From positions 1-35,037 of the IMG/VR virus record IMGVR_UViG_3300036799_000111: a DNA stretch of 35,037 nucleotides; one strand, given 5' to 3'. This DNA comes from a virus. A program made the translations under genes and the position numbers. Positions 1 to 35,037 of this stretch are shown piece after piece; the stretch's first letter is position 1, and every line of letters starts with the position of its first letter. The notes beneath the pieces are model-generated. The model was not told the DNA's origin and did no database searches. It saw only the letters and a program-made list of their open reading frames with translations.

Positions 1-127
1 GATGGTGCCCCACACCCGGTCCCCCCAGGTGCGGGCCAGGCGCAAGTAGTCGTCCCACAGCTGTCCCCACCCGTCGACCGATTCGGGCGCCAGCGAGAGG
101 GCGACGGGCAGCTCGAGCCCGTGCCGG
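1..127. repeat. Exact 127-bp terminal direct repeat, copy 1
   Basis: Positions 1-127 are identical to 34911-35037. The repeat lies inside one coding gene (dpdA) that reads across the join, so it behaves as an end overlap of a circular assembly rather than a separate functional element. The length of 127 is also a common largest k-mer in de Bruijn assemblers, which fits a circular graph path cut open (inference). The unique circle would be 34,910 bp. Confidence 0.95.
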
Positions 128-358
128 GCGGGCGTGCTCGGCGGCCAGCGAGTAGACGCCGGAGTCGAGCAGCACCCGCACGCCCCGGTCGAGCAGCGAC
201 TCCATGAACGGGGCGAACTCGGGGCGGGCGGCGACGTTGACGGCGATGAGCACGTGGCGCACGGCGGGCACCACGGCGTCGATGATGTCGGGGCCGGGCC
301 CGACGATGAAATAGCACGGGCGGTCGGAGGGATCCCACGCCCCGGACGTGGCCGTCAC
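1..358 (-). CDS. dpdA: DpdA-like deazaguanine DNA transglycosylase, 5' part (frameshifted, crosses contig ends)
   Basis: N-terminal part of a gene that continues at 35037-34368. Start GTG at 358-356 overlaps the TGA of the preceding 62-aa gene (GTGA). The first segment reads through a CYFIVGPGPD motif and LLDSGVYSLA, the conserved (D)SG-x-(Y/F)-S region of TGT-fold proteins. The frame is then lost at 126-128, where one extra G (C on the coding strand) separates AAEHAR from HGLELPVALS. Removing one base gives a continuous gene of 900 nt (299 aa). Family knowledge: DpdA proteins are tRNA-guanine-transglycosylase relatives that exchange guanine in DNA for 7-deazaguanines (preQ0 or derivatives). 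It is the last gene of the early operon. The break lies exactly where the terminal repeat ends, so a sequence error is possible. Confidence 0.72.
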   Translation of the reverse strand, partial: MTATSGAWDPSDRPCYFIVGPGPDIIDAVVPAVRHVLIAVNVAARPEFAPFMESLLDRGVRVLLDSGVYSLAAEHARPARARAARRPLAGARIGRRVGTAVGRLLAPGPHLGGPGVGHH

Positions 359-543
359 GGGCGCGTCCCCGAACTGTCGTTAGGGGGCACTTCGATAACG
401 GCTCCCGTCAGGTCGTGCGACTCCACCCACTTGATGATTCGCTCAGCGATGGGCGCACAATCAACGTCGCTCGGTAGGAGCGACCCGAAGAACTCGAACA
501 GAGCCGTTCTAGGGAATGTCACGTAGTCGGCGTTCGGGGTCAT
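355..543 (-). CDS. Small hypothetical protein, 62 aa
   Basis: ATG at 543, and the stop overlaps the dpdA GTG, so translation is probably coupled to dpdA. The protein is acidic and no domain was recognised. It starts MTPNAD, as two other nearby small genes do, preceded by the same GACAGGTCGGAGCC leader as the 52-aa gene upstream. The coding strand near its end also carries CCCCTAACGACAG, which recurs near 560. Confidence 0.6.
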   Translation of the reverse strand: MTPNADYVTFPRTALFEFFGSLLPSDVDCAPIAERIIKWVESHDLTGAVIEVPPNDSSGTRP

Positions 544-1497: not shown

Positions 1498-2268
1498 CAC
1501 GCCACCTTCACGATCGACTCGTCGCCGGCGACGGCAGCGTACTTGTCGAGCAGATGCCCGGCGATATACGGCTCGGGCTGCACCAACACCAGCGTCCGAG
1601 ACTCGGCCAGCTCGGTCAGCGCCGCGTACGGGCCCGGGTAGGGCACGAACATGGCGTCGCCGACCAGCAGCGGCGCCCACGACGCCCACCCGGTCATCAC
1701 CTCGCCCACCACCAGGTGGTGGCGGCCGGCCAGCCGGTAGCAGTCGCCCGGCTCGACCTTGTGCACGGGGGCGCCCATGGTCACGTCGGACTCGGCCAGC
1801 AAATCCCGCGGCGGCGGGTTACGCCGCAACACGAGTTTCTGTAACTCGGCGTCGGAGAAACCCGTCACCGCCAGCAGCCCGTCGCCGTCGATGAGCTCGA
1901 GCACGTCGGCCGAGGGAGGCCAGCCAGCCGCCTTTCGGGCCGACACTGTTGAGGGTGACCAGCGCCGTGCGGGCGTGGCCGTCGTCGCGCGACGCCCAGC
2001 CGCGCACCACGTCGACCTTCCACCGGCCGTCCGCCACGGTCACCCCGTCGGGGATCTCGCCCGGCTTGGACTGCCGGCGTTCGATTAGCAGCTTGCGGCG
2101 GCCGTGCCCGGAGATGATGAACCCGGTCCGCTCGTCGAGCACGATCGGCTCGACCAGGCCGAACTCGTCGATCGAGGCGCCCAGCAGCGCCACGGCGTGG
2201 TCCTTGGGGTTCTCGGGGTGGGGGACGAGTTCGTCCAGGTCGGTGAGTTGCAGGGTGCGGGCGGCCAC
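1497..2268 (-). pseudogene. ParB/Srx-domain protein with methyltransferase-like C-terminal part, split by a frameshift
   Basis: The first frame (from 2268) shows a ParB/sulfiredoxin-like domain: LDELVPHPENPKDH, SIDEFGLVEPIVLDE and the signature GFIISGHGRRKL, then a region ending ALVTLNSVGPKGGW. A second frame (ending at 1497) continues logically with PPSADVLELIDGDGLL, GFSDAELQKL and EPGDCYRLAGRHHLVVGE. The switch lies at a tandem CCAG-CCAG (1920-1927, plus strand); removing four bases restores GGWPPSADVL. In many phages ParB domains are fused to DNA methyltransferases, and the text around GDCYRLAGRHHLVVG resembles the linker into that domain. No DPPY motif follows (MFVPYPGPY instead), so a normal methylase is not expected. 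Both halves could be made separately, but one broken gene is the simpler reading. Confidence 0.65.
1920..1927. repeat. 4-bp tandem duplication causing frameshift
   Basis: CCAGCCAG on the plus strand (CTGGCTGG in the coding direction) sits exactly where the ParB-like gene changes frame. A single CCAG would leave one continuous frame. Confidence 0.6.
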
Positions 2269-2272
2269 GGTG

Positions 2273-2554
2273 TCAGTCTTTCGGGTCGTCGCCGCGCAAG
2301 AGGCGCAGCGGGCGTTCGGCGGGCGGGGCCAGCACGAACTTTTGGTAGCGGGCGCCGGCCGGGCATTCGCAGCGGTAGGCCATCGGCACGAAGCGGTAGC
2401 CGCCGGGCAGGCTGCTGTCGTCGACGCGCTGGTCGAGCTCGAGCAGTCCGCTGTCGCCGCAGCGCGGACAGGTCGTGTTGCGGGGCCGGCGGCTGCTGCC
2501 GCGGTCGCGCATCACCGCGAGGCGGTTGAGGATGGCGTCCAGGTCGATGATCAC
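2273..2554 (-). CDS. Zinc-ribbon phage protein, 93 aa
   Basis: Contains CPRCGDSGLLEL near residue 29 and a second cysteine pair, CECPAG, near residue 62. This four-cysteine arrangement, with GYRFVPMAYRCEC between, is typical of small zinc-ribbon proteins in actinophage replication regions. It overlaps the upstream replication-like gene by four bases and ends four bases before the ParB-like start, so it is in the same operon. The exact role is unknown. Confidence 0.65.
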   Translation of the reverse strand: MIIDLDAILNRLAVMRDRGSSRRPRNTTCPRCGDSGLLELDQRVDDSSLPGGYRFVPMAYRCECPAGARYQKFVLAPPAERPLRLLRGDDPKD

Positions 2555-3881: not shown

Positions 3882-4059
3882 CGTGTCGTACCTCCACGAC
3901 GGCGCCGATCCGCTCGGCCATCTCGTGCGCGGCTTTCTCCATCGACCGACAGTTCGCCGGCGTCGGCTCGTAGCCGAGGCCTCGGACCATCGCCTCGATG
4001 TCAAAGTGGAGGGCGCCGGCGTCGTCGACCCACACGCCGGGCGGGTAGCCGTCGCTCAC
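3874..4059 (-). CDS. GYPPGVWVDD-domain protein, 61 aa (paralog 2)
   Basis: GTG at 4059-4057 overlaps the upstream TGA (GTGA). The sequence DGYPPGVWVDDAGALHFDIE and the helix MEKAAHEMAERIGAVVE match the N-terminal domain of the 164-aa protein at 1003-1497 nearly position for position. It therefore represents the stand-alone domain. Its function is unknown. It overlaps the VRR-NUC start by eight bases. Confidence 0.65.
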   Translation of the reverse strand: MSDGYPPGVWVDDAGALHFDIEAMVRGLGYEPTPANCRSMEKAAHEMAERIGAVVEVRHDG

Positions 4060-4784
4060 GGGACACACCCCGTGTGGCGCAGGACGGTGCCGGCCACCAG
4101 GTCGCCGATCTCGAACGGCTGCCCGCACCCGTTACAGGTGGCGCCCACGATCTCGTCGCCGTCGACGACCTCGACGATGATGGCCCGCTTGTTGGCGGCC
4201 ACATACCGCTCGCGCTGGTAGGTCTTGTAACACTCCCGGCAGCACCAGCGCAGCGTGCCCTTGTCGTTCTTGGTGTCGAACTCGGCGAGGGGCAGCCAGT
4301 CGTCGCAGCGGGGACAGTGGCGTTCGCCGTCGTGGGTCTTGGTCTTGTAGGCCGCGTTGGACTGGCGGCGTTCCTCGGTGCTGCGCGAGGCAGCGGCGCG
4401 CTGCCAGCCGTTGACGGTGCCGACCGGCAGCCCGTAGGCGGCCGCCACCTGGCGGAGGCTGCCGCCCTGCTCGAGCTCGGCCAGGGCGGCGGCCTTCCGC
4501 TCGGCCTGGCGTTCGGGTCGGGCGGCCTCGCGGGCGACGGCCTGCTGGCAGGCGGCCAGGTCGCGGATCACGAAATCTAGAGCTCTTCTAGAGTCGCCGG
4601 CCATCGTGGCGCGGCGCACGGCCCGCAGCCCGCCGATGTCTCGGTGCAGCCGGGCGATGACCTCGCGCAGATCGGCGGGCGCCCCTAGCGTCCCCGCTGC
4701 GCCCGGGTCGGGCTCGTCGGCGGCTGCTGCTGCGCCGGCGCCGGCGAGGGTGGCAGCGGGCCCGCTGGAGGGCTCTGCGCTCAC
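4056..4784 (-). CDS. HTH and double zinc-site protein, 242 aa
   Basis: An Ala/Gly-rich N-terminus (about residues 8-35) is followed by a helical region and a helix-turn-helix (GGSLRQVAAAYGLPVGTVNGW, around residues 106-126). Then comes a CPRCDDWLPLAEF...CCRECYKTYQRER zinc site and a second CNGCG...HTGC site at the C-terminus. This suggests a DNA-binding regulator or replication accessory factor. One copy of the dispersed CTAGCGTCCCCGCTGCGCCC repeat lies inside the N-terminal coding region in inverted orientation (4684-4706). The stop overlaps the downstream GTG. Confidence 0.65.
   Translation of the reverse strand: MSAEPSSGPAATLAGAGAAAAADEPDPGAAGTLGAPADLREVIARLHRDIGGLRAVRRATMAGDSRRALDFVIRDLAACQQAVAREAARPERQAERKAAALAELEQGGSLRQVAAAYGLPVGTVNGWQRAAASRSTEERRQSNAAYKTKTHDGERHCPRCDDWLPLAEFDTKNDKGTLRWCCRECYKTYQRERYVAANKRAIIVEVVDGDEIVGATCNGCGQPFEIGDLVAGTVLRHTGCVP
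4684..4706 (+). repeat. Dispersed CTAG-hairpin repeat, copy G (inverted)
   Basis: Reads CCTAGCGTCCCCGCTGCGCC on the plus strand, the reverse complement of the other copies. Unlike them it lies inside a coding region. Confidence 0.55.
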
Positions 4785-8107: not shown

Positions 8108-8158
8108 CTTTCGCGAGCGTAGATGCTCGCGTTCGGCGCCCTGGTCTGCGAGAATTAC

Positions 8159-10024
8159 ATGCATGGGATTCTCGCTGAGGGGCGTGCGGTGACTCTGGGG
8201 GTAGCGGATCGCCAGCCGAGCGTGCTCAATGACATGGATCGGTTTTGCGACGATGTGCTGGCGGAGAAGTCGATCTATGCGTTGTTGCACCGGGAGCGGG
8301 ACCGGTTGTTCCCCGATGAGATGTTCGCTGATCTGTTCGCCGATAAAGGGCGGCGCAGTGTGCCGCCCTCGGTGGTGGCCACGGTGATGGTGTTGCAGCG
8401 TCTCGAGGGGCTGTCGGATCGGGAGGCGGTGGAGCGCTACAGCTTTGATGCCCGCTGGCGGTACGCGGCGGGGGTGGGCAGCTATGACTGCGGGGGTTGG
8501 GGCAGTTTCGCGCATACGGTGCTGGTGGACTTCCGGGCCCGGCTGGATCGCTCGCAGGATAGGAGACGGATTTTCAAGGTGACGGTGGAGGCGGCCAGCT
8601 CGGCGGGTCTGGTGGGGGCCAAGCGGGTGCTGGATTCCACTCCTCTGTATGACGCGGTGGCCACCATGGACACCATCACGCTGGTGCGCTCGGCAATCCG
8701 GGGTTTGCTGCAGGTGGCCGACTCGGTGGTGGAAGCCGAGCTGCGGGGGTTGATCAAAAGCGGGGATGATTATGCGACCTCGGCCAAGCCGCAGATCGAC
8801 TGGGATGATCAGGCGGCCCGCGACGAGCTGATCGACTCTCGAGCCAAGGACGGCTACGCCATGCTGGCTCACCTGGATGGCCGAGAGCTCGAGGATCCGG
8901 TGGCTGAGGCGGCCGAGTTGTTGGCCACTGTGTTGGGCCAGGACCTGGAGGAGAACCAAGACGGGGTGTTTCGTATCGCCCGGCGGGTGGCGCCTGACCG
9001 GGTCATCTCCACGGTGGACCCCGAGGCCCGCCACGGACGCAAGACTTCGGCTCGGGGCTATGACGGGTATCGGGGTCATATCGCGCTCGACCCTGACTCT
9101 GAGATCATCACCGACACCGAGGCGAGCGCCGCCAATGTCGGTGACGCCTCTGTGGCGCCGGATTTGATTGATGACCTCACCGGTGGCAACGACGTCGATA
9201 CCCAACACGAGGATCTCCCAGGCGGCGACAGCGGTAGCAGCTCTCCCGCCAGCGACAGCAGCAATCCCGATCGCGGTAGCCAGCGTGCGGTTCGGGCCAA
9301 GCGGGCCGGGGGCCGCAAGCCGGCCCGCAAGGCCAAGAAAGGCCGGGCGGCCAAGGCCGCCGCCCAGGTGGCTCGCAGCGCCCGGGCGGCCGCCCGGCGG
9401 GCCAACGGGCGCGCCCGCCTGGCCCGCCGCCAACCGCACCGCTCGATCAACGGACGGGCCCGCCCGAAGGTGTATGGGGACGCCGCCTATGGCAGCGGGG
9501 AGTTCTTGGATCTGTTGGCCCGGGCCGGTGTCGACTCGGGCTGCAAGACCCAGCCCCCGGTCGCTCCGGGCGGGCGCTATAGCAAAGACGAGTTTTACAT
9601 CGATCTCCACGCTGACACCGTCACCTGCCCCGCTGGCGAGGAAGTGGCGATCCGGCGGAACAAATCCGGCGATGGCATCGCCTCCTTCGCAACGGCGTGC
9701 GCGGACTGCCCGCTGCGATCCGACTGCACCACCGCTGCTGAGGGGCGGACCATCACGGTGGGCCGCCACGAAGCCCGCCTGGTCGACGCCCGCGCCCAGG
9801 CTCAGGACCCACAGTGGCGTGAGGACTACCGGGACACTCGGCCCAAAGTGGAACGCAAGCTCGCTCACATGATGCGACGCCGCCACGGCGGCCGACGGGC
9901 CCGGGTGCGCGGACGAAAGAAGGTCGACGCCGACTTCAACCTGCTCGCAGCCGCCACCAACCTGGCCCGCCTCGCGGTCCTCAGCGTTCGCGGCGGCCCC
10001 GAGGGCGCATGGGCAGTCGCATGA
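8159..10024 (+). CDS. IS1182-family DDE transposase
   Basis: About 621 aa from ATG 8159; GTG at 8189 with a GAGGGG site upstream is an alternative start. It shows the IS1182/DUF772 N-terminus (FADLFADKGRRSVPPSVVATVMVLQRLEGLSDREAVER), the first catalytic Asp region (AKRVLDSTPLYDA), ARGYDGYRGHIALDPDSEIIT, the second Asp (KVYGDAAYGSG), a cysteine cluster (TCPAG...CADCPLRSDC) and the terminal E-containing RPKVERKLAHMMRRRHGGRRARVRG typical of the family. A Lys/Arg/Ala-rich insert (about residues 375-435) lies before the second Asp. The frame is intact, so the element may still be mobile. Confidence 0.88.
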   Translation: MHGILAEGRAVTLGVADRQPSVLNDMDRFCDDVLAEKSIYALLHRERDRLFPDEMFADLFADKGRRSVPPSVVATVMVLQRLEGLSDREAVERYSFDARWRYAAGVGSYDCGGWGSFAHTVLVDFRARLDRSQDRRRIFKVTVEAASSAGLVGAKRVLDSTPLYDAVATMDTITLVRSAIRGLLQVADSVVEAELRGLIKSGDDYATSAKPQIDWDDQAARDELIDSRAKDGYAMLAHLDGRELEDPVAEAAELLATVLGQDLEENQDGVFRIARRVAPDRVISTVDPEARHGRKTSARGYDGYRGHIALDPDSEIITDTEASAANVGDASVAPDLIDDLTGGNDVDTQHEDLPGGDSGSSSPASDSSNPDRGSQRAVRAKRAGGRKPARKAKKGRAAKAAAQVARSARAAARRANGRARLARRQPHRSINGRARPKVYGDAAYGSGEFLDLLARAGVDSGCKTQPPVAPGGRYSKDEFYIDLHADTVTCPAGEEVAIRRNKSGDGIASFATACADCPLRSDCTTAAEGRTITVGRHEARLVDARAQAQDPQWREDYRDTRPKVERKLAHMMRRRHGGRRARVRGRKKVDADFNLLAAATNLARLAVLSVRGGPEGAWAVA

Positions 10025-30462: not shown

Positions 30463-30768
30463 TCACCAGATCCGGGAGCGTTGGCCGAGGGAACGCCCGG
30501 CCCGGGCGTCGTTGGTGATCTGTGCGCCGCCCACGCTGTTGCACGGCCGGCAGGCGGCCCGCAGGTTGGCCGGATCCAGCACCGGGCCGCCGTGGTGGCG
30601 GGCGATGATGTGGTCGACGGTGGTAGCCACGCCGAGGCAGCACGGCAGGTTGAGTTGGCAGCGGTAGCCGTCCCGGGCCAGCACGTCGGCCCGGATGCGC
30701 CGCCATTCTCGGGTGTCGAGCTCCGGTTGGCGCCGGCGTCTGCTGCGCTGCGCTGCGGCGGCTGGCAT
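30463..30768 (-). CDS. HNH endonuclease, 101 aa
   Basis: ATG 30768 overlaps the TAA of the 54-aa membrane gene (TAATG). HNH motif VDHIIARHHGGPVLDPANLRAACRPCN, with a CQLNLPCC zinc pair before it and a basic N-terminus (AAQRSRRRRQPEL). HNH proteins beside terminases are needed for packaging cleavage in HK97-like phages. The 225-bp stretch to terS (30240-30462) contains only its possible N-terminal extension and no separate gene. Confidence 0.88.
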   Translation of the reverse strand: MPAAAAQRSRRRRQPELDTREWRRIRADVLARDGYRCQLNLPCCLGVATTVDHIIARHHGGPVLDPANLRAACRPCNSVGGAQITNDARAGRSLGQRSRIW

Positions 30769-30932
30769 TACGGGGCGATCGGCGGTATCGCCGCAGCCAG
30801 CAGCCCGACGCCAGCAGCCAGGCCGGCGCCGGCGAGTAGGTCGACCTCGTTATTGGGGTGGCCGATGAGCACGACGAGCGCCAGCACGATGGCGGCGATG
30901 GCTGCGCCGATCACGACGTAGACGGCTCGCAC
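30768..30932 (-). CDS. Small two-helix membrane protein, 54 aa
   Basis: GTG 30932 (or GTG 30938) to TAA 30768. Two hydrophobic stretches, YVVIGAAIAAIVLALVVLIG and LLAGAGLAAGVGLLAAAIPPI, separated by HPNNEVD. It ends the metabolic cassette and overlaps HNH. It could be a holin-type or membrane anchor protein; the true holin candidate is more likely near the endolysin. Confidence 0.6.
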   Translation of the reverse strand: MRAVYVVIGAAIAAIVLALVVLIGHPNNEVDLLAGAGLAAGVGLLAAAIPPIAP

Positions 30933-30941
30933 TCCCACGGG

Positions 30942-31718
30942 TCAGAGGATAGGCCCGGTGATCGCGGCCAGCGTGGCGTCCCACAATGCCAGCCGGGCGT
31001 CGAGCGCCGCCGTGGCGCTATGGGCCGCCATCCGCCAGTCCGCGTCAGTGTGGCAGGAGGCGGTGACGAGCAGCCGGGCGGCGGGCCCGTGGAGCTGCCC
31101 GTCGAGGGCCACGTGGCGCAGCAGGTAGTCCCGCCACAGCGGCGCCTCGACGGTGGCGGCGGCGAGCATGGCGTCGAACACGTCGGGCAGCAGCCTTTCG
31201 CGCCCGTAGCAGAACGCGGCGGCGGCGGCGGGCAGGCTGTCGGCCAGGCGGGCGGTGACGAGCGAGAAGTCGCGGCCGGCCTCGGGGACGCCCTTCCACA
31301 GCAGGGCGGCGCCGGTGTCGTACCCGTCGAGCAGCCGGTCGAGGTAGTCGAGGATCGGGCCGGTGTCGGCGCCGACCTGGCGCATGGCGGCCAGGTAGAG
31401 CTCCAAATGTGAGGCGTGTCCGCCGGCGCCGTCGTCGTCGGATTCCTCGGCGAGGGTGATCTCGTTGACGGCCCGGGTGGCGGCCGGGTTTATGGGCGGA
31501 AGCCAGCGCGGGCCGGACGGCGCGAAAGCGTTGCGCAGCACGCCGAGGAGGACCATGAAGTCGTAGACCGCCCACACGTGCAGGCCCATAAACGTCTGGA
31601 GTTTCCAGACGTCGGTGATGGCCGAGTAGATCGGGTGGGAGTTCAGGCGGGCGTGGCGGCCGGCGAGGCTCTGCTCGAGCTCGTCAACACCGCGTCGAGT
31701 GCGGACACCAGATCGCAT
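30942..31718 (-). CDS. DUF3050-like heme-oxygenase-fold protein, 258 aa
   Basis: ATG 31718 (overlap of 76 bases with the SLOG gene). The order of motifs fits DUF3050: LNSHPIYSAITDVWKLQTFMGLHVWAVYDFM, RWLPPINPAATRAVNEITLAEESDDDG, HASHLELYLAAMRQVGADTGPILDYL, AFCYGRERLLPDVFDAML, and RDYLLRHVALDGQLHGPAARLL. The His and Glu residues in these segments are the likely ligands of a di-metal site in the heme-oxygenase-like diiron superfamily. DUF3050 proteins have unknown function. The same superfamily contains CADD, which makes para-aminobenzoate for folate; an enzymatic link to FolE here is speculative. Confidence 0.75.
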   Translation of the reverse strand: MRSGVRTRRGVDELEQSLAGRHARLNSHPIYSAITDVWKLQTFMGLHVWAVYDFMVLLGVLRNAFAPSGPRWLPPINPAATRAVNEITLAEESDDDGAGGHASHLELYLAAMRQVGADTGPILDYLDRLLDGYDTGAALLWKGVPEAGRDFSLVTARLADSLPAAAAAFCYGRERLLPDVFDAMLAAATVEAPLWRDYLLRHVALDGQLHGPAARLLVTASCHTDADWRMAAHSATAALDARLALWDATLAAITGPIL

Positions 31719-32182
31719 ATGGCAACCTCCACCGTGCCGGGTATGACCGCCGAGTGGCCTCCGACCGTGAAGACCGGCACCCCACGGTCGAGGGCCACGG
31801 CCATCTCTTGCCAGGTGCCGTGACTGCCGGGCAAGGCGACCATCGCCGCGCACGTCGAGGCGGTGATGACGTTGCGCACTGTCACGGGCAGACCGGTGCG
31901 GATCACGACGTCGGCCGGGCCGATGCAGTCCTCGTCGCCAGGCAGGATCGCTATGACCCGCCCTTGGTGTCGGCGAGCTCCTTCGGCCACCGCGGCCATA
32001 ATCCCGCCGCGGCCGCCGGTGACGATCGAGAAACCCGCTCGCGCCAACACGATTCCGACCGCGTCGGCGAGGGCCAGGTTTAGGACCGGCGGGTCGACCC
32101 GCTTGCCGACCACGGCCACGAGCACGTCATGGCCTCTGATGTTCGTGTCTCGCGCTGGGGATGGCCGTTCGTCGGTTTCCAT
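31643..32182 (-). CDS. LOG/SLOG-family nucleotide-binding protein, 179 aa
   Basis: ATG overlaps the upstream TAA (TAATG). Rossmann-like pattern of the LOG/TIGR00725 group: HDVLVAVVGKRVDP, FSIVTGGRGGIMAAVAEGAR (54-70), RVIAILPGDE, VTVRNVITASTCAAMVALPGSHGTWQEMAVAL. The PGGxGTxxE box of LOG phosphoribohydrolases is altered to PGSHGTWQE, keeping the Gly-Thr and Glu. LOG enzymes split the N-glycosidic bond of nucleotides; others in the superfamily sense nucleotides. In this phage either base release or signal sensing is possible. Confidence 0.78.
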   Translation of the reverse strand: METDERPSPARDTNIRGHDVLVAVVGKRVDPPVLNLALADAVGIVLARAGFSIVTGGRGGIMAAVAEGARRHQGRVIAILPGDEDCIGPADVVIRTGLPVTVRNVITASTCAAMVALPGSHGTWQEMAVALDRGVPVFTVGGHSAVIPGTVEVAICDLVSALDAVLTSSSRASPAATPA

Positions 32183-32457
32183 TACAGGTCGAAGAGGTCT
32201 GACACGAACAGGATCAGGGCGACCTCACGCCGGCGCAGCGTTTCGTCGGCGGTGACGGCGAGCCGTTCCCGGGCGTGGCGGACGATGGTGTGGCCGAGTT
32301 CGAGGCGTTCCTCGGGGGTGAGCTCGGCGCGGACCTGGGACCAAATAACGAGCGGCCCGGCCAGGTGGCCGGCGCAGGCTTGGCACGCTTGCCGGAACCG
32401 GGTTGCCAGCCGGTCGACGGCTACGCCCCGAGAAACGACGGCCGGTGGTTTGACCAT
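32182..32457 (-). CDS. Hypothetical helical protein, 91 aa
   Basis: Starts within the end of folE (37-base overlap). Helical throughout: VAVDRLATRFRQACQACAGHLAGPLVIWSQV, ELTPEERLELGHTIVRHARERL. A cysteine pair (CQAC) near residue 24 could bind metal. No family recognised; it is the second gene of the cassette and translationally linked to SLOG. Confidence 0.55.
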   Translation of the reverse strand: MVKPPAVVSRGVAVDRLATRFRQACQACAGHLAGPLVIWSQVRAELTPEERLELGHTIVRHARERLAVTADETLRRREVALILFVSDLFDL

Positions 32458-33041
32458 GTGGCGTCGAAGGCGGCGCGCAGCGGCCCGTCGGCGAGGCAGC
32501 CGGAATATTCGCTGACGGTGACGAGCTCCTGGGCCGGGGCGTTGGTGCGCAGCGCGATGCAGGTGTGGACCGAGCGCAGCACCACGGCCAGGCCGTCGGG
32601 CTGGAGTTGGTCGAGGACGGCGTCGCGGACTTCGACGACCAGGCGCTCGTTGAGGGTGGGCCGGCGGGCGAAGTAGTTGAGGGCCTTTTTCAGTTTTGAG
32701 TAGCCGACGACACGTTCGCCCGGCACGTAGGCCAGATGCGCCACCCCGAAGGCGGCGGCCAGGTGGTGCTCACAGACCGACACGTAGTGGACGTCATTGA
32801 CGATCACCATGCCGGTCATGCCCGGGTTCGCGAACGTCTTTAGCGGGAGCTCCACGTCGACGTCGGGCGGGTTGATGAACTGGTCCCAGAGCTCGGCCAC
32901 CCGGCGGGGGGTGTTGGCCATGACCTCGGTCTTGTCGTCCTGGCCGAGCCCGTAGAGCAGGGAGGCCACGGCGTCGGCGACGGCCGGCTGGTCGACGTGT
33001 TTGCGGTCGAGGGGAATGGGCTCTGTGTCGGTTGCCACCAT
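32421..33041 (-). CDS. folE: GTP cyclohydrolase I, 206 aa
   Basis: All key elements are present: VSVCEHHLAAAFG with the zinc ligands Cys90 and His93, YVPGERVVGYSKLKKALNYFARRPTLNERLV (substrate-site GxSK and the RP...QER-like motif), and SVHTCIALR with Cys161. Converts GTP to 7,8-dihydroneopterin triphosphate, the entry to folate and to 7-deazaguanine synthesis. First gene of the late operon, after a 135-bp gap with a likely divergent promoter. Phage folE commonly accompanies deazaguanine DNA modification; dpdA ends about 1.3 kb away on the circle. Confidence 0.9.
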   Translation of the reverse strand: MVATDTEPIPLDRKHVDQPAVADAVASLLYGLGQDDKTEVMANTPRRVAELWDQFINPPDVDVELPLKTFANPGMTGMVIVNDVHYVSVCEHHLAAAFGVAHLAYVPGERVVGYSKLKKALNYFARRPTLNERLVVEVRDAVLDQLQPDGLAVVLRSVHTCIALRTNAPAQELVTVSEYSGCLADGPLRAAFDATWSNHRPSFLGA

Positions 33042-33096: not shown

Positions 33097-33224
33097 CGGC
33101 GGGTCGTTGTTGCTGGCAGGAGACGAGTTTTCCAGATGCGTGGCCTGGCGGGGGCTGCGGTGGTGACCTAAGCGGCGTGGTTGCAAGGCGCAGCCGCAAG
33201 CAAGCGAAAGCGAGAAGCAAGACG

Positions 33225-33783
33225 ATGGCAGTTAGCAAGAACAGCAAGCCGGCAGTTGAGGCGCCGAAGAGCCAGGGGGCCTGGCAGACCTTGAAGGGTG
33301 TGCAGGTCGGCGACCTGATGGCCCGAGGCAACTTGAAGGGCGGGCCGGGCGAGTACGTGGCCATCGTGGCCATCGAGAACAGTGGCAGCGAGCGGGTTGT
33401 GAAGTTGGCGGACGGCTCGACGATGAGCGGTGGGATGGCCACCAAGTTTTGGGTCACCAAGACCGACAGTGTGGCGCCGGTCAAGGCGCAGCCGGCCAAG
33501 GCGCAGCCGGCCAAGGCGCAGCCGGCCAAGGCGGCCGCCGAGGTCGTGGCCGAGGCCTCCGAGAAGGTGCAGCTTCGGGCCGGCTTCGACGTGGCCGATG
33601 CGATCGCCGCCACCGGCAAGAAGCTGAACGCCTTGTGTGTCGAGGCGGGCGGGCCGGCGGCTGGCATGAATCCGAGCCAGTTGCGGCGCATGCTGGTCGG
33701 CCAGGTGAACCGGGTGGAGAAGGGCCGGGCGGCGATTATCGCCAAGAACCTGGGCGTGGCCTTCGACAAGATGTGGGACGCGC
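33225..33783 (+). pseudogene. Unknown protein, first frame, with AKAQP repeats (frame lost near 33780)
   Basis: ATG 33225 (MAVSKNSKPAVEAPKSQGAW); GTG 33177 is an alternative. First domain: GAWQTLKGVQVGDLMARGNLKGGPGEYVAIVAIENSGSERVVKLADGSTMSGGM, beta-rich. A linker of KAQPA repeats follows, then a helical domain (FDVADAIAATGKKLNALCVEAGG, SQLRRMLVGQVNRVEKGRAAIIAKNLGVAFDKMWD). The frame stays open past here but third-codon GC falls to about half, while the +1 frame becomes strongly GC-rich. One extra base at 33780-33784 would explain it. The function is unknown. Confidence 0.5.
33483..33527. repeat. 15-bp tandem repeat, three copies
   Basis: AAGGCGCAGCCGGCC repeated three times exactly, encoding AKAQP/KAQPA units, then a diverged AAGGCGGCCGCC. 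Prone to expansion or slippage. Confidence 0.95.
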
Positions 33784-33933
33784 CTGATCGCCGGCACCAC
33801 GCAGACGCCTCGCCACACGCTGCTCACGCTGCGGCTGACGACGACGCAGGTCGTGTTACAGGTGCGCTGGCAGGACGAGATCACGGTGCGGACCAAGCTC
33901 GGGCCGTACCTGGCCGGCCTGGAGGCGCTGTGA
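33784..33933 (+). CDS. Continuation or separate small gene, 49 aa, frame +1
   Basis: From CTG 33784: LIAGTTQTPRHTLLTLRLTTTQVVLQVRWQDEITVRTKLGPYLAGLEAL to TGA 33931-33933. Third codon positions are G or C in 47 of 49 codons, against 24 of 50 in the frame that continues the upstream gene. There is no ATG, GTG or TTG start after the last in-frame stop (33706). So it is either a CTG-started gene or the end of the upstream protein after a frameshift. Its stop overlaps the next GTG (GTGA). Confidence 0.5.
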   Translation: MIAGTTQTPRHTLLTLRLTTTQVVLQVRWQDEITVRTKLGPYLAGLEAL

Positions 33934-34094
33934 CAAACACGTTCGCCAGCGCCAAGAGCGACGTCGAGCACGCCGAGCTCTTGCTCAACCGGGCGGTCGG
34001 CGTGTACCGGAATCTGGCGCCCGACAGCGAGGCGACCACCGAGTTGACCGCAGCGCATCGGGCCGTGTGGGAATGGAGGGTGAATCACGACTGA
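33930..34094 (+). CDS. Hypothetical helical protein, 54 aa
   Basis: GTG 33930 overlaps the preceding TGA. VTNTFASAKSDVEHAELLLNRAVGVYRNLAPDSEATTELTAAHRAVWEWRVNHD: two helices with a short turn, no known family. It ends 16 bp before the hairpin terminator. Confidence 0.6.
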   Translation: MTNTFASAKSDVEHAELLLNRAVGVYRNLAPDSEATTELTAAHRAVWEWRVNHD

Positions 34095-34321: not shown

Positions 34322-34371
34322 GGCGCTAGCTGCCAGGGCGCCGGCTGCTCGGGGCGCAGCGGGACGGCTAG
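34322..34371. repeat. Dispersed CTAG-hairpin repeat, copy E
   Basis: GGCGCTAGCTGCCAGGGCGC ... GGGGCGCAGCGGGACGGCTAG. Its CTAG holds the TAG stop codon of dpdA on the minus strand. Confidence 0.65.
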
Positions 34372-35037
34372 GCCGGTCTGCGGCCCGGCTGGACGCCGGC
34401 CTCGTCGAGGCGCGCCAGCCAGTGGCGCCAGCCGGCCTGCATGGCGGCCGCACCCAGGCCGGCCATCTGCACCGCGTCCATCCACGACCCTCGCTCGCTG
34501 CGCTCCACGCCGCGCTGCGACCGGTAGCGGGGGCCGAGCTCGGCGAGCGGGTCGAGCATGGCCCGCTCGGTGTAATCACCCCAGCGGGCCGGCGACAGCC
34601 ACGTCGACGAGTCGGCGCTGTCGACGGTGAACGCATGGCACCACGGCGACGGCGTGAGCCCCAGCAGGTGGATCCACAGCCCGGGGTAGGCCCGCCGGCG
34701 TTCCTCGACGGTCCACAGCAGCGCCAGCCGCAGCCCGGCGTCGGCCTGGACGATGTTGCCGAGACACATCCGGTCGTAGTTTTCGGCGAGCTCGTCGAAG
34801 TAGTCCCACCCGTCTGCTAACGGGTGGTAGACCGGGATCGGGGCCAGGCCCAGGTCTTCGAGGCGGGCCCGGGTCTTGCGCTTGTTGGCGGCGCCGCCCT
34901 GGTCGAGCTCGATGGTGCCCCACACCCGGTCCCCCCAGGTGCGGGCCAGGCGCAAGTAGTCGTCCCACAGCTGTCCCCACCCGTCGACCGATTCGGGCGC
35001 CAGCGAGAGGGCGACGGGCAGCTCGAGCCCGTGCCGG
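34368..35037 (-). CDS. dpdA: DpdA-like deazaguanine DNA transglycosylase, 3' part
   Basis: Continues from position 1-127 across the contig ends. Conserved TGT/DpdA motifs: WGTIELDQGG, LAPIPVYHPLADGWDYFDELAENYDRMCLGNIV, WIHLLGLTPSPWCHAFTVDSADSSTWLSPARWGDY. The (S/V)VDSxxW region and the LGxT strand are typical of this family. It lacks the CxCxxC zinc motif of bacterial TGT in what I can see. It is the final gene of the early operon, ending in copy E of the dispersed repeat. With folE present, a modified base in the phage DNA is the likely outcome. Confidence 0.75.
   Translation of the reverse strand, partial: RHGLELPVALSLAPESVDGWGQLWDDYLRLARTWGDRVWGTIELDQGGAANKRKTRARLEDLGLAPIPVYHPLADGWDYFDELAENYDRMCLGNIVQADAGLRLALLWTVEERRRAYPGLWIHLLGLTPSPWCHAFTVDSADSSTWLSPARWGDYTERAMLDPLAELGPRYRSQRGVERSERGSWMDAVQMAGLGAAAMQAGWRHWLARLDEAGVQPGRRPA
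34911..35037. repeat. Exact 127-bp terminal direct repeat, copy 2
   Basis: Identical to 1-127; see copy 1. Confidence 0.95.

Follow-up and report, generated by a model that had tools for sequence, protein, structure and literature searches.

A phage gene cassette related to the 8-azaguanine cluster of Streptomyces and linked to the DNA transglycosylase DpdA

A route to 8-azaguanine is encoded by the cluster ptnABCDEF (also 8-azgF-A) of Streptomyces pathocidini, and the cluster has likewise been described in S. hoynatensis and S. morookaense (PMC7109123, PMC7674941, PMC11705231). Its products are a GTP cyclohydrolase I-like protein that is required (PtnA), a small iron protein described as having no close homologues (PtnB), a LOG-type monophosphate nucleosidase that acts in vitro on 8-azaguanosine 5'-monophosphate (PtnC), a pyrophosphatase combined with an acetyltransferase (PtnD), an efflux protein (PtnE) and a nitric oxide (NO) synthase (PtnF) (PMC7109123, PMC7674941). 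Here we describe a related cassette of phage genes in a stretch of metagenome DNA of 35,037 nucleotides, the window (IMG/VR virus record IMGVR_UViG_3300036799_000111, positions 1-35,037). Judging from the sequences, we lean, if narrowly, towards reading the cassette as the 8-azaguanine pathway in a phage form, working together with the DNA transglycosylase DpdA. The first-pass annotation of the window had pointed out five overlapping genes ahead of HNH and terminase genes, and all five open reading frames (ORFs) were verified on the minus strand at 30768-33041 by ORF reading together with Pfam and PHROG profiles; HNH, small terminase, large terminase, portal and capsid genes follow.

Homologues of PtnA, PtnB and PtnC

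The GTP cyclohydrolase I (FolE) paralogue of the window can be aligned with S. pathocidini PtnA, a protein of equal length, over 205 amino acids (aa) without a gap and with 56% identity. In the FolE tree, a single PtnA clade with a support of 100/100 unites 16 phage and 8 bacterial sequences and is separate from housekeeping FolEs and from the FolEs of queuosine-type phages; six of the seven bacterial genomes searched carry a housekeeping FolE in addition. Tyr114, Lys119 and Asn131, which adjoin conserved zinc and GTP residues, are fixed in all 24 sequences of the clade, as opposed to Leu, Arg and Gln in 14/14 others; Asn131 presumably corresponds to Gln151 of E. coli. The residues highlighted in the first-pass annotation (Cys90, His93 and Cys161) are present, as is His92, and the residues named for PtnA (R47, C90, H92, H93, S115, K116, E132, C161 and R165) are found at identical numbers in the window protein. 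A profile of the clade built from phage sequences only, free of bacterial ones, yielded eight loci in a scan of 84,980 prokaryote genomes, the best three being those of S. hoynatensis, S. morookaense and S. pathocidini. In each of these three, the 91-aa protein and the SLOG protein of the window have homologues next to FolE in the same order, A-B-C.

The 91-aa protein matched the PtnB loci with E values of 3e-5 to 1e-3 in phmmer and of 1e-21 with a profile, and it is 33% identical to S. pathocidini PtnB. Cys28, His31, Gly34 and Leu88 are invariant across 22 PtnB-like sequences, and a homologue is present in every viral cassette. The structure model is a confident four-helix bundle (pLDDT 92), for which a fold search found no match beyond the chance level for helical bundles. 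The protein thus qualifies as a PtnB/8-AzgE homologue, which by analogy with Streptomyces may bind iron. The SLOG protein shares 41% identity with S. pathocidini PtnC, and the PGSHGTWQE box, noted in the first-pass annotation and present as stated, is the same altered box as PGSHG(A/S)xQE of PtnC, with conserved Glu and Arg. The SLOG tree groups the window protein with that of contig L061 and the Streptomyces PtnCs at 88/87, which is weaker than the support for the FolE clade. The suggestion of the first-pass annotation that the LOG-like protein frees a base from its nucleotide is probably right. The reading of the SLOG protein as a molybdenum cofactor (Moco) carrier (PDB 2iz5) was dropped, PtnC being closer.

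Scans of IMG/VR with single sequences and tblastn against 50,697 phages gave no close relatives of the SLOG and DUF3050 proteins and only FolEs from outside the clade. Relatives were found with profiles: the DUF3050 profile (A1) led to 56 viral loci, and those of FolE and SLOG to more. In this way, 17 viral contigs were brought together (the window and 16 others, of which L065 and L066 are near-identical by match tables), in which the genes for a PtnA-clade FolE, a PtnB-like protein and a SLOG protein are adjacent and DpdA is present. The order varies among the contigs and is A-B-C, as in Streptomyces, in most phages. Four of the five cassette genes occur together with dpdA in 13 of the 17 contigs, a recurrence far beyond chance. 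It could be argued that the genes are chance neighbours or the result of misassembly, as the contigs are metagenomic and dpdA of the window is frameshifted at the assembly junction, but the combination recurs in 17 contigs with varied order and fused forms, and PtnA-B-C are found in named Streptomyces; the recurrence refutes this explanation, to which we assign a practically negligible probability. The view of the first-pass annotation that the genes form one base-making module is borne out by the recurrence in viral contigs, save for the 56-aa membrane ORF, which probably lies outside the system because phmmer scans of the other cassettes revealed no relative of it. No viral FolE of the clade was found without a PtnB-like or SLOG gene, and the co-occurrence with dpdA that had been proposed as a check was seen for the PtnA-type FolE in every one of the 17 contigs.

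The FolE could also serve to boost 7-deazaguanine synthesis of the host, with host QueD, QueE and QueC making preQ0 for DpdA and the SLOG and DUF3050 proteins tailoring it. It is true that the FolE reaction, a shared one, comes first in preQ0 synthesis and that the bases inserted by DpdA of known phages are 7-deazaguanines, to our knowledge the only DpdA products so far. However, the FolE belongs to the PtnA clade and not with the queuosine-linked phage FolEs, and whole-contig Pfam searches, in which the controls worked, detected QueD (PF01242), QueC (PF06508) and radical SAM/QueE (PF04055) in 0/17 contigs each. FolEs from outside the PtnA clade (L078-L082) have QueC, QueD or QueE as neighbours instead. 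We consider this explanation highly improbable.

PtnA, PtnB and PtnC genes were also observed together in metagenome-assembled genomes (L098-L101) of Pseudonocardiales, with PtnB and PtnC in one frame, Myxococcales and Bacteriovorax. The neighbours in L100 are amidohydrolase, double-cupin, isochorismatase-like and TPP-enzyme-like genes, with no DpdA. These loci may represent 8-azapurine-type clusters of a new kind.

The DUF3050 protein

The structure of the DUF3050 protein was modelled from an alignment of viral-contig rows only, with a pLDDT of 93.7. The best match of the model was PDB 9vwb, 'HamA, a Heme-Oxygenase-Like Enzyme' (E 4e-13, TM 0.85/0.88, 35% identity); CADD, PqqC, UndA and PolF followed at a clear distance. 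E90/E91, H103, E173, H201, D205 and H209, numbered from the residue after ATG, are invariant in 20 viral DUF3050 sequences, which provides the set of three His and three carboxylate ligands expected of a dimetal site. By sequence and model, the protein is a predicted HamA-type dimetal oxygenase, in agreement with the dimetal haem-oxygenase fold foreseen in the first-pass annotation. The same annotation had considered a pterin, folate, para-aminobenzoate (pABA)/CADD or 7-deazaguanine route, which we abandon, the closest relatives being PtnA, PtnB, PtnC and HamA. The CADD/pABA and folate reading in particular was rejected in view of the far closer sequence and fold of HamA.

DUF3050 constitutes the HamA/MgoB/PvfA family. 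The product of the HamA pathway has an N-N bond, and HamA is counted among the putative N-N bond enzymes (PMC11705231). A member of the family is encoded in 13 of the 17 viral contigs, whereas the three ptn Streptomyces lack one (0/3). Conversely, NO synthase (PtnF), the proven nitrogen source, was found in 0/17 viral contigs, with S. pathocidini as a positive (E 1e-154); S. hoynatensis has neither NO synthase nor DUF3050. In L029 and L065, a single open frame covers both PtnB and DUF3050, the SLOG protein of L020 is fused to a Nudix domain, and a Nudix gene adjoins DUF3050 in L065 and L066; a Nudix domain is also part of PtnD. Because the DUF3050 protein is of the HamA type and NO synthase is absent, it probably supplies the N-N step. 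The simplest reading of the sequences is that DUF3050, together with PtnB, probably supplies or performs the nitrosation that is done by NO synthase in Streptomyces. The absence of NO synthase also leads us to file the cassette as a variant that would work like the 8-azaguanine pathway rather than as a full member.

Alternatively, the pathway may yield another guanine-like base for DpdA, with PtnA giving a diaminopyrimidine or pterin that is oxidised by DUF3050. This would fit a dimetal oxygenase from a superfamily that performs many oxidations, the absence of NO synthase, the lack of an established function for PtnB and the linkage to DpdA in 17/17 contigs. On the other hand, none of the viral cassettes lacks PtnB or PtnC, which mark the 8-azaguanine cluster, and HamA, the closest solved relative of DUF3050, comes from a pathway with an N-N-bonded product. 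We regard another base as rather unlikely.

DUF3050 was also encountered in a second setting, namely 40 viral loci (within L018-L064; e.g. L039 8659-9993 and L044 7131-8246) with no PtnABC or DpdA nearby. There, it is preceded by two ORFs with radical-SAM-like cysteine motifs (in 28/40 and 24/40 loci), and on a Mesorhizobium plasmid (L007) two radical SAM genes lie ahead of it.

Pairing with DpdA and the proposed pathway

In the 17 viral contigs, dpdA mostly lies beside the PtnA gene. The DpdAs of the cassettes are mixed among queuosine-linked DpdAs; a single clade was rejected (approximately unbiased (AU) test, p 8e-5), and the DpdAs of L020 and of the queuosine-type L082 are sisters (98/94), although the details of this tree, which has long branches and includes the partial row of the window, are unsure. 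As the cassette DpdAs are not one lineage, the association with DpdA has more than one origin, and such repeated pairing argues for a function. In mammalian cells, the tRNA enzyme TGT exchanges 8-azaguanine into tRNA in a reversible manner (PMC8136771). Taken together, the repeated pairing and this exchange make insertion into phage DNA the best reading.

The same genes make an antimetabolite in Streptomyces, and bacterial ptnABC loci lack dpdA, which suggests that free 8-azaguanine might be directed against RNA synthesis of the host or against rival phages, with DpdA as an unrelated neighbour. The presence of DpdA in all 17 viral contigs, in most of them next to PtnA and from more than one lineage, speaks against this, as does the operon slot, which in Rosebush-type phages is occupied by a base pathway of the queuosine type. 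An antimetabolite role thus appears clearly improbable to us.

In the pathway that we propose for insertion of 8-azaguanine into DNA, the PtnA-type FolE would open the imidazole ring of GTP and remove C8, giving a 2,5-diamino-6-ribosylaminopyrimidine phosphate. The HamA-type DUF3050 protein, assisted by the PtnB-like protein and using O2 and a nitrogen donor, would then place a nitrogen at the C8 position, so that the 1,2,3-triazole is closed in replacement of the Streptomyces NO synthase. Pyrophosphate would be lost via the Nudix domain in some phages and otherwise by host enzymes, and the PtnC-like SLOG protein would cleave the nucleoside 5'-monophosphate to free 8-azaguanine. Finally, DpdA would swap 8-azaguanine for guanine in the phage DNA and thereby shield it from restriction enzymes.

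A number of observations weigh against this pathway. Besides the missing NO synthase and the function of PtnB, four viral contigs lack DUF3050, all four being fragments of less than 16 kb. HamA is only a putative N-N enzyme, and in one study it was dispensable for hydroxylamine intermediates. Position 165 of the FolE is Lys in most phage PtnA proteins, as compared to Arg in canonical enzymes and in the window. The FolE clade is missing from cultured phages (50,697 records, tblastn), where all 392 FolE matches were below 60% identity and those listed had 32-39% identity. In addition, dpdA was found in 0/8 bacterial loci with ptnABC, and the reading frame of dpdA in the window appears to shift near base 128, at the assembly junction, a frameshift that is either real or an assembly error. 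The reversibility of 8-azaguanine insertion by TGT could also limit the yield (PMC8136771). On balance, that phages acquired an antibiotic pathway and use it, via DpdA, to write 8-azaguanine into their genomes, with a HamA-type oxygenase doing the N-N chemistry, seems to us a proposition with an even chance of being right.

If this is true, natural DNA would gain a base from a new chemical class, and the PtnB and DUF3050/HamA families would each acquire a function. We are aware of no proposal of a triazole base in a natural genome earlier than this one. Both the chemistry of natural DNA and that of phage counter-defence would be broadened by a base that has nitrogen in place of carbon and stems from an antibiotic pathway. 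The proposal also bears on whether an enzyme builds the triazole ring in 8-azaguanine synthesis and suggests that a triazole nucleobase may be made with no need for NO synthase. No paper connecting 8-azaguanine to DpdA or to modified phage DNA came up in a search that mostly left subscription papers and preprints outside; the idea is likely, though not certainly, new in print.

Genome context and comparison with known systems

The ends of the window are an exact 127-bp direct repeat (1-127 = 34911-35037), a pattern that assembly with k=127 gives for circular contigs. The window thus probably represents a genome that is circular and complete, with a length of about 34.9 kb. Identical ends of this kind usually mark an assembled genome as circular, so that dpdA runs on at the left end; the 3' part of dpdA and the end identity had both been missed in the first-pass annotation. 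The ParB-like gene is kept in L009, L011, L016, L031 and L061 and is gene 1 in Rosebush-type phages.

Table 1 Features of the cassette and of the dpdA region in the window.
Feature	Coordinates	Strand	Evidence
PtnA-type GTP cyclohydrolase I, FolE paralogue, 206 aa	32421-33041	-	PF01227 E 6e-41
PtnB-like 91-aa protein	32182-32457	-	phmmer and profile matches to PtnB loci
PtnC-like SLOG/LDcluster4 protein, predicted LOG-type 5'-monophosphate phosphoribohydrolase	31643-32182	-	PF18306 E 6e-26
DUF3050 protein, predicted HamA-type haem-oxygenase-like dimetal oxygenase	30942-31718	-	PF11251 E 8e-58
56-aa membrane ORF	30768-30938	-	
dpdA 3' part, DNA-guanine transglycosylase	34368-35036	-	phrog_887 E 8e-16; DpdA profile E 6e-35; SADSSTW motif
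dpdA 5' part, open frame beyond circular junction	1-379	-	LLDSG motif; frame reading
ParB-like nuclease-domain gene, DpdA companion, also in Rosebush-type phages	1822-2511	-	phrog_620 E 1.5e-14

Between dpdA and the PtnA gene sits a gene on the opposite strand (33177-34094, +) that contains PAKAQ repeats and weakly matches a helix-turn-helix; its family was found again in eight of the compared contigs. Elsewhere in the phage genome there is a DDE transposase ORF at 8123-10024 (PF13751 E 9e-22), probably an inserted IS element, and a stretch of about 150 bp is present twice, at 1344-1494 and 3915-4066, with 82% likeness.

Of the single proteins, the DUF3050 protein has the superfamily fold in common with CADD, the dimetal pABA synthase of Chlamydia (TM 0.66-0.78), but only about 15% identity, and the match is far weaker than that to HamA. 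With HamA, MgoB and PvfA of the fragin, valdiazen and mangotoxin clusters it shares the family, the fold and the six-ligand dimetal site; in contrast to these clusters, no non-ribosomal peptide synthetase (NRPS), AurF-type N-oxygenase or HamE partner was seen, and the substrate must differ. The Moco carrier protein and the TIGR00725/LOG proteins have the SLOG Rossmann fold in common with the window protein (PDB 1rcu, 2iz5) and are less similar to it than PtnC.

As to whole systems, the Rosebush-type 7-deazaguanine phages (e.g. Mycobacterium phage Rosebush) carry ParB, dpdA, queC, queD, queE, folE and terminase genes in the same slot. DpdA, its ParB-like partner, a GTP cyclohydrolase I and the position ahead of the terminase genes are thus common to both, whereas the window has a FolE of another clade and, instead of QueD, QueC and radical SAM, the PtnB, PtnC and DUF3050 proteins. 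With the 8-azaguanine cluster of S. pathocidini, the cassette shares homologues of PtnA, PtnB and PtnC, their order, the active-site residues and the altered SLOG box. It differs from that cluster in that the Nudix domain, part of PtnD, is found in some phages and not in the window, and in that it is carried by phages, has DUF3050 in place of PtnF and is joined by DpdA.

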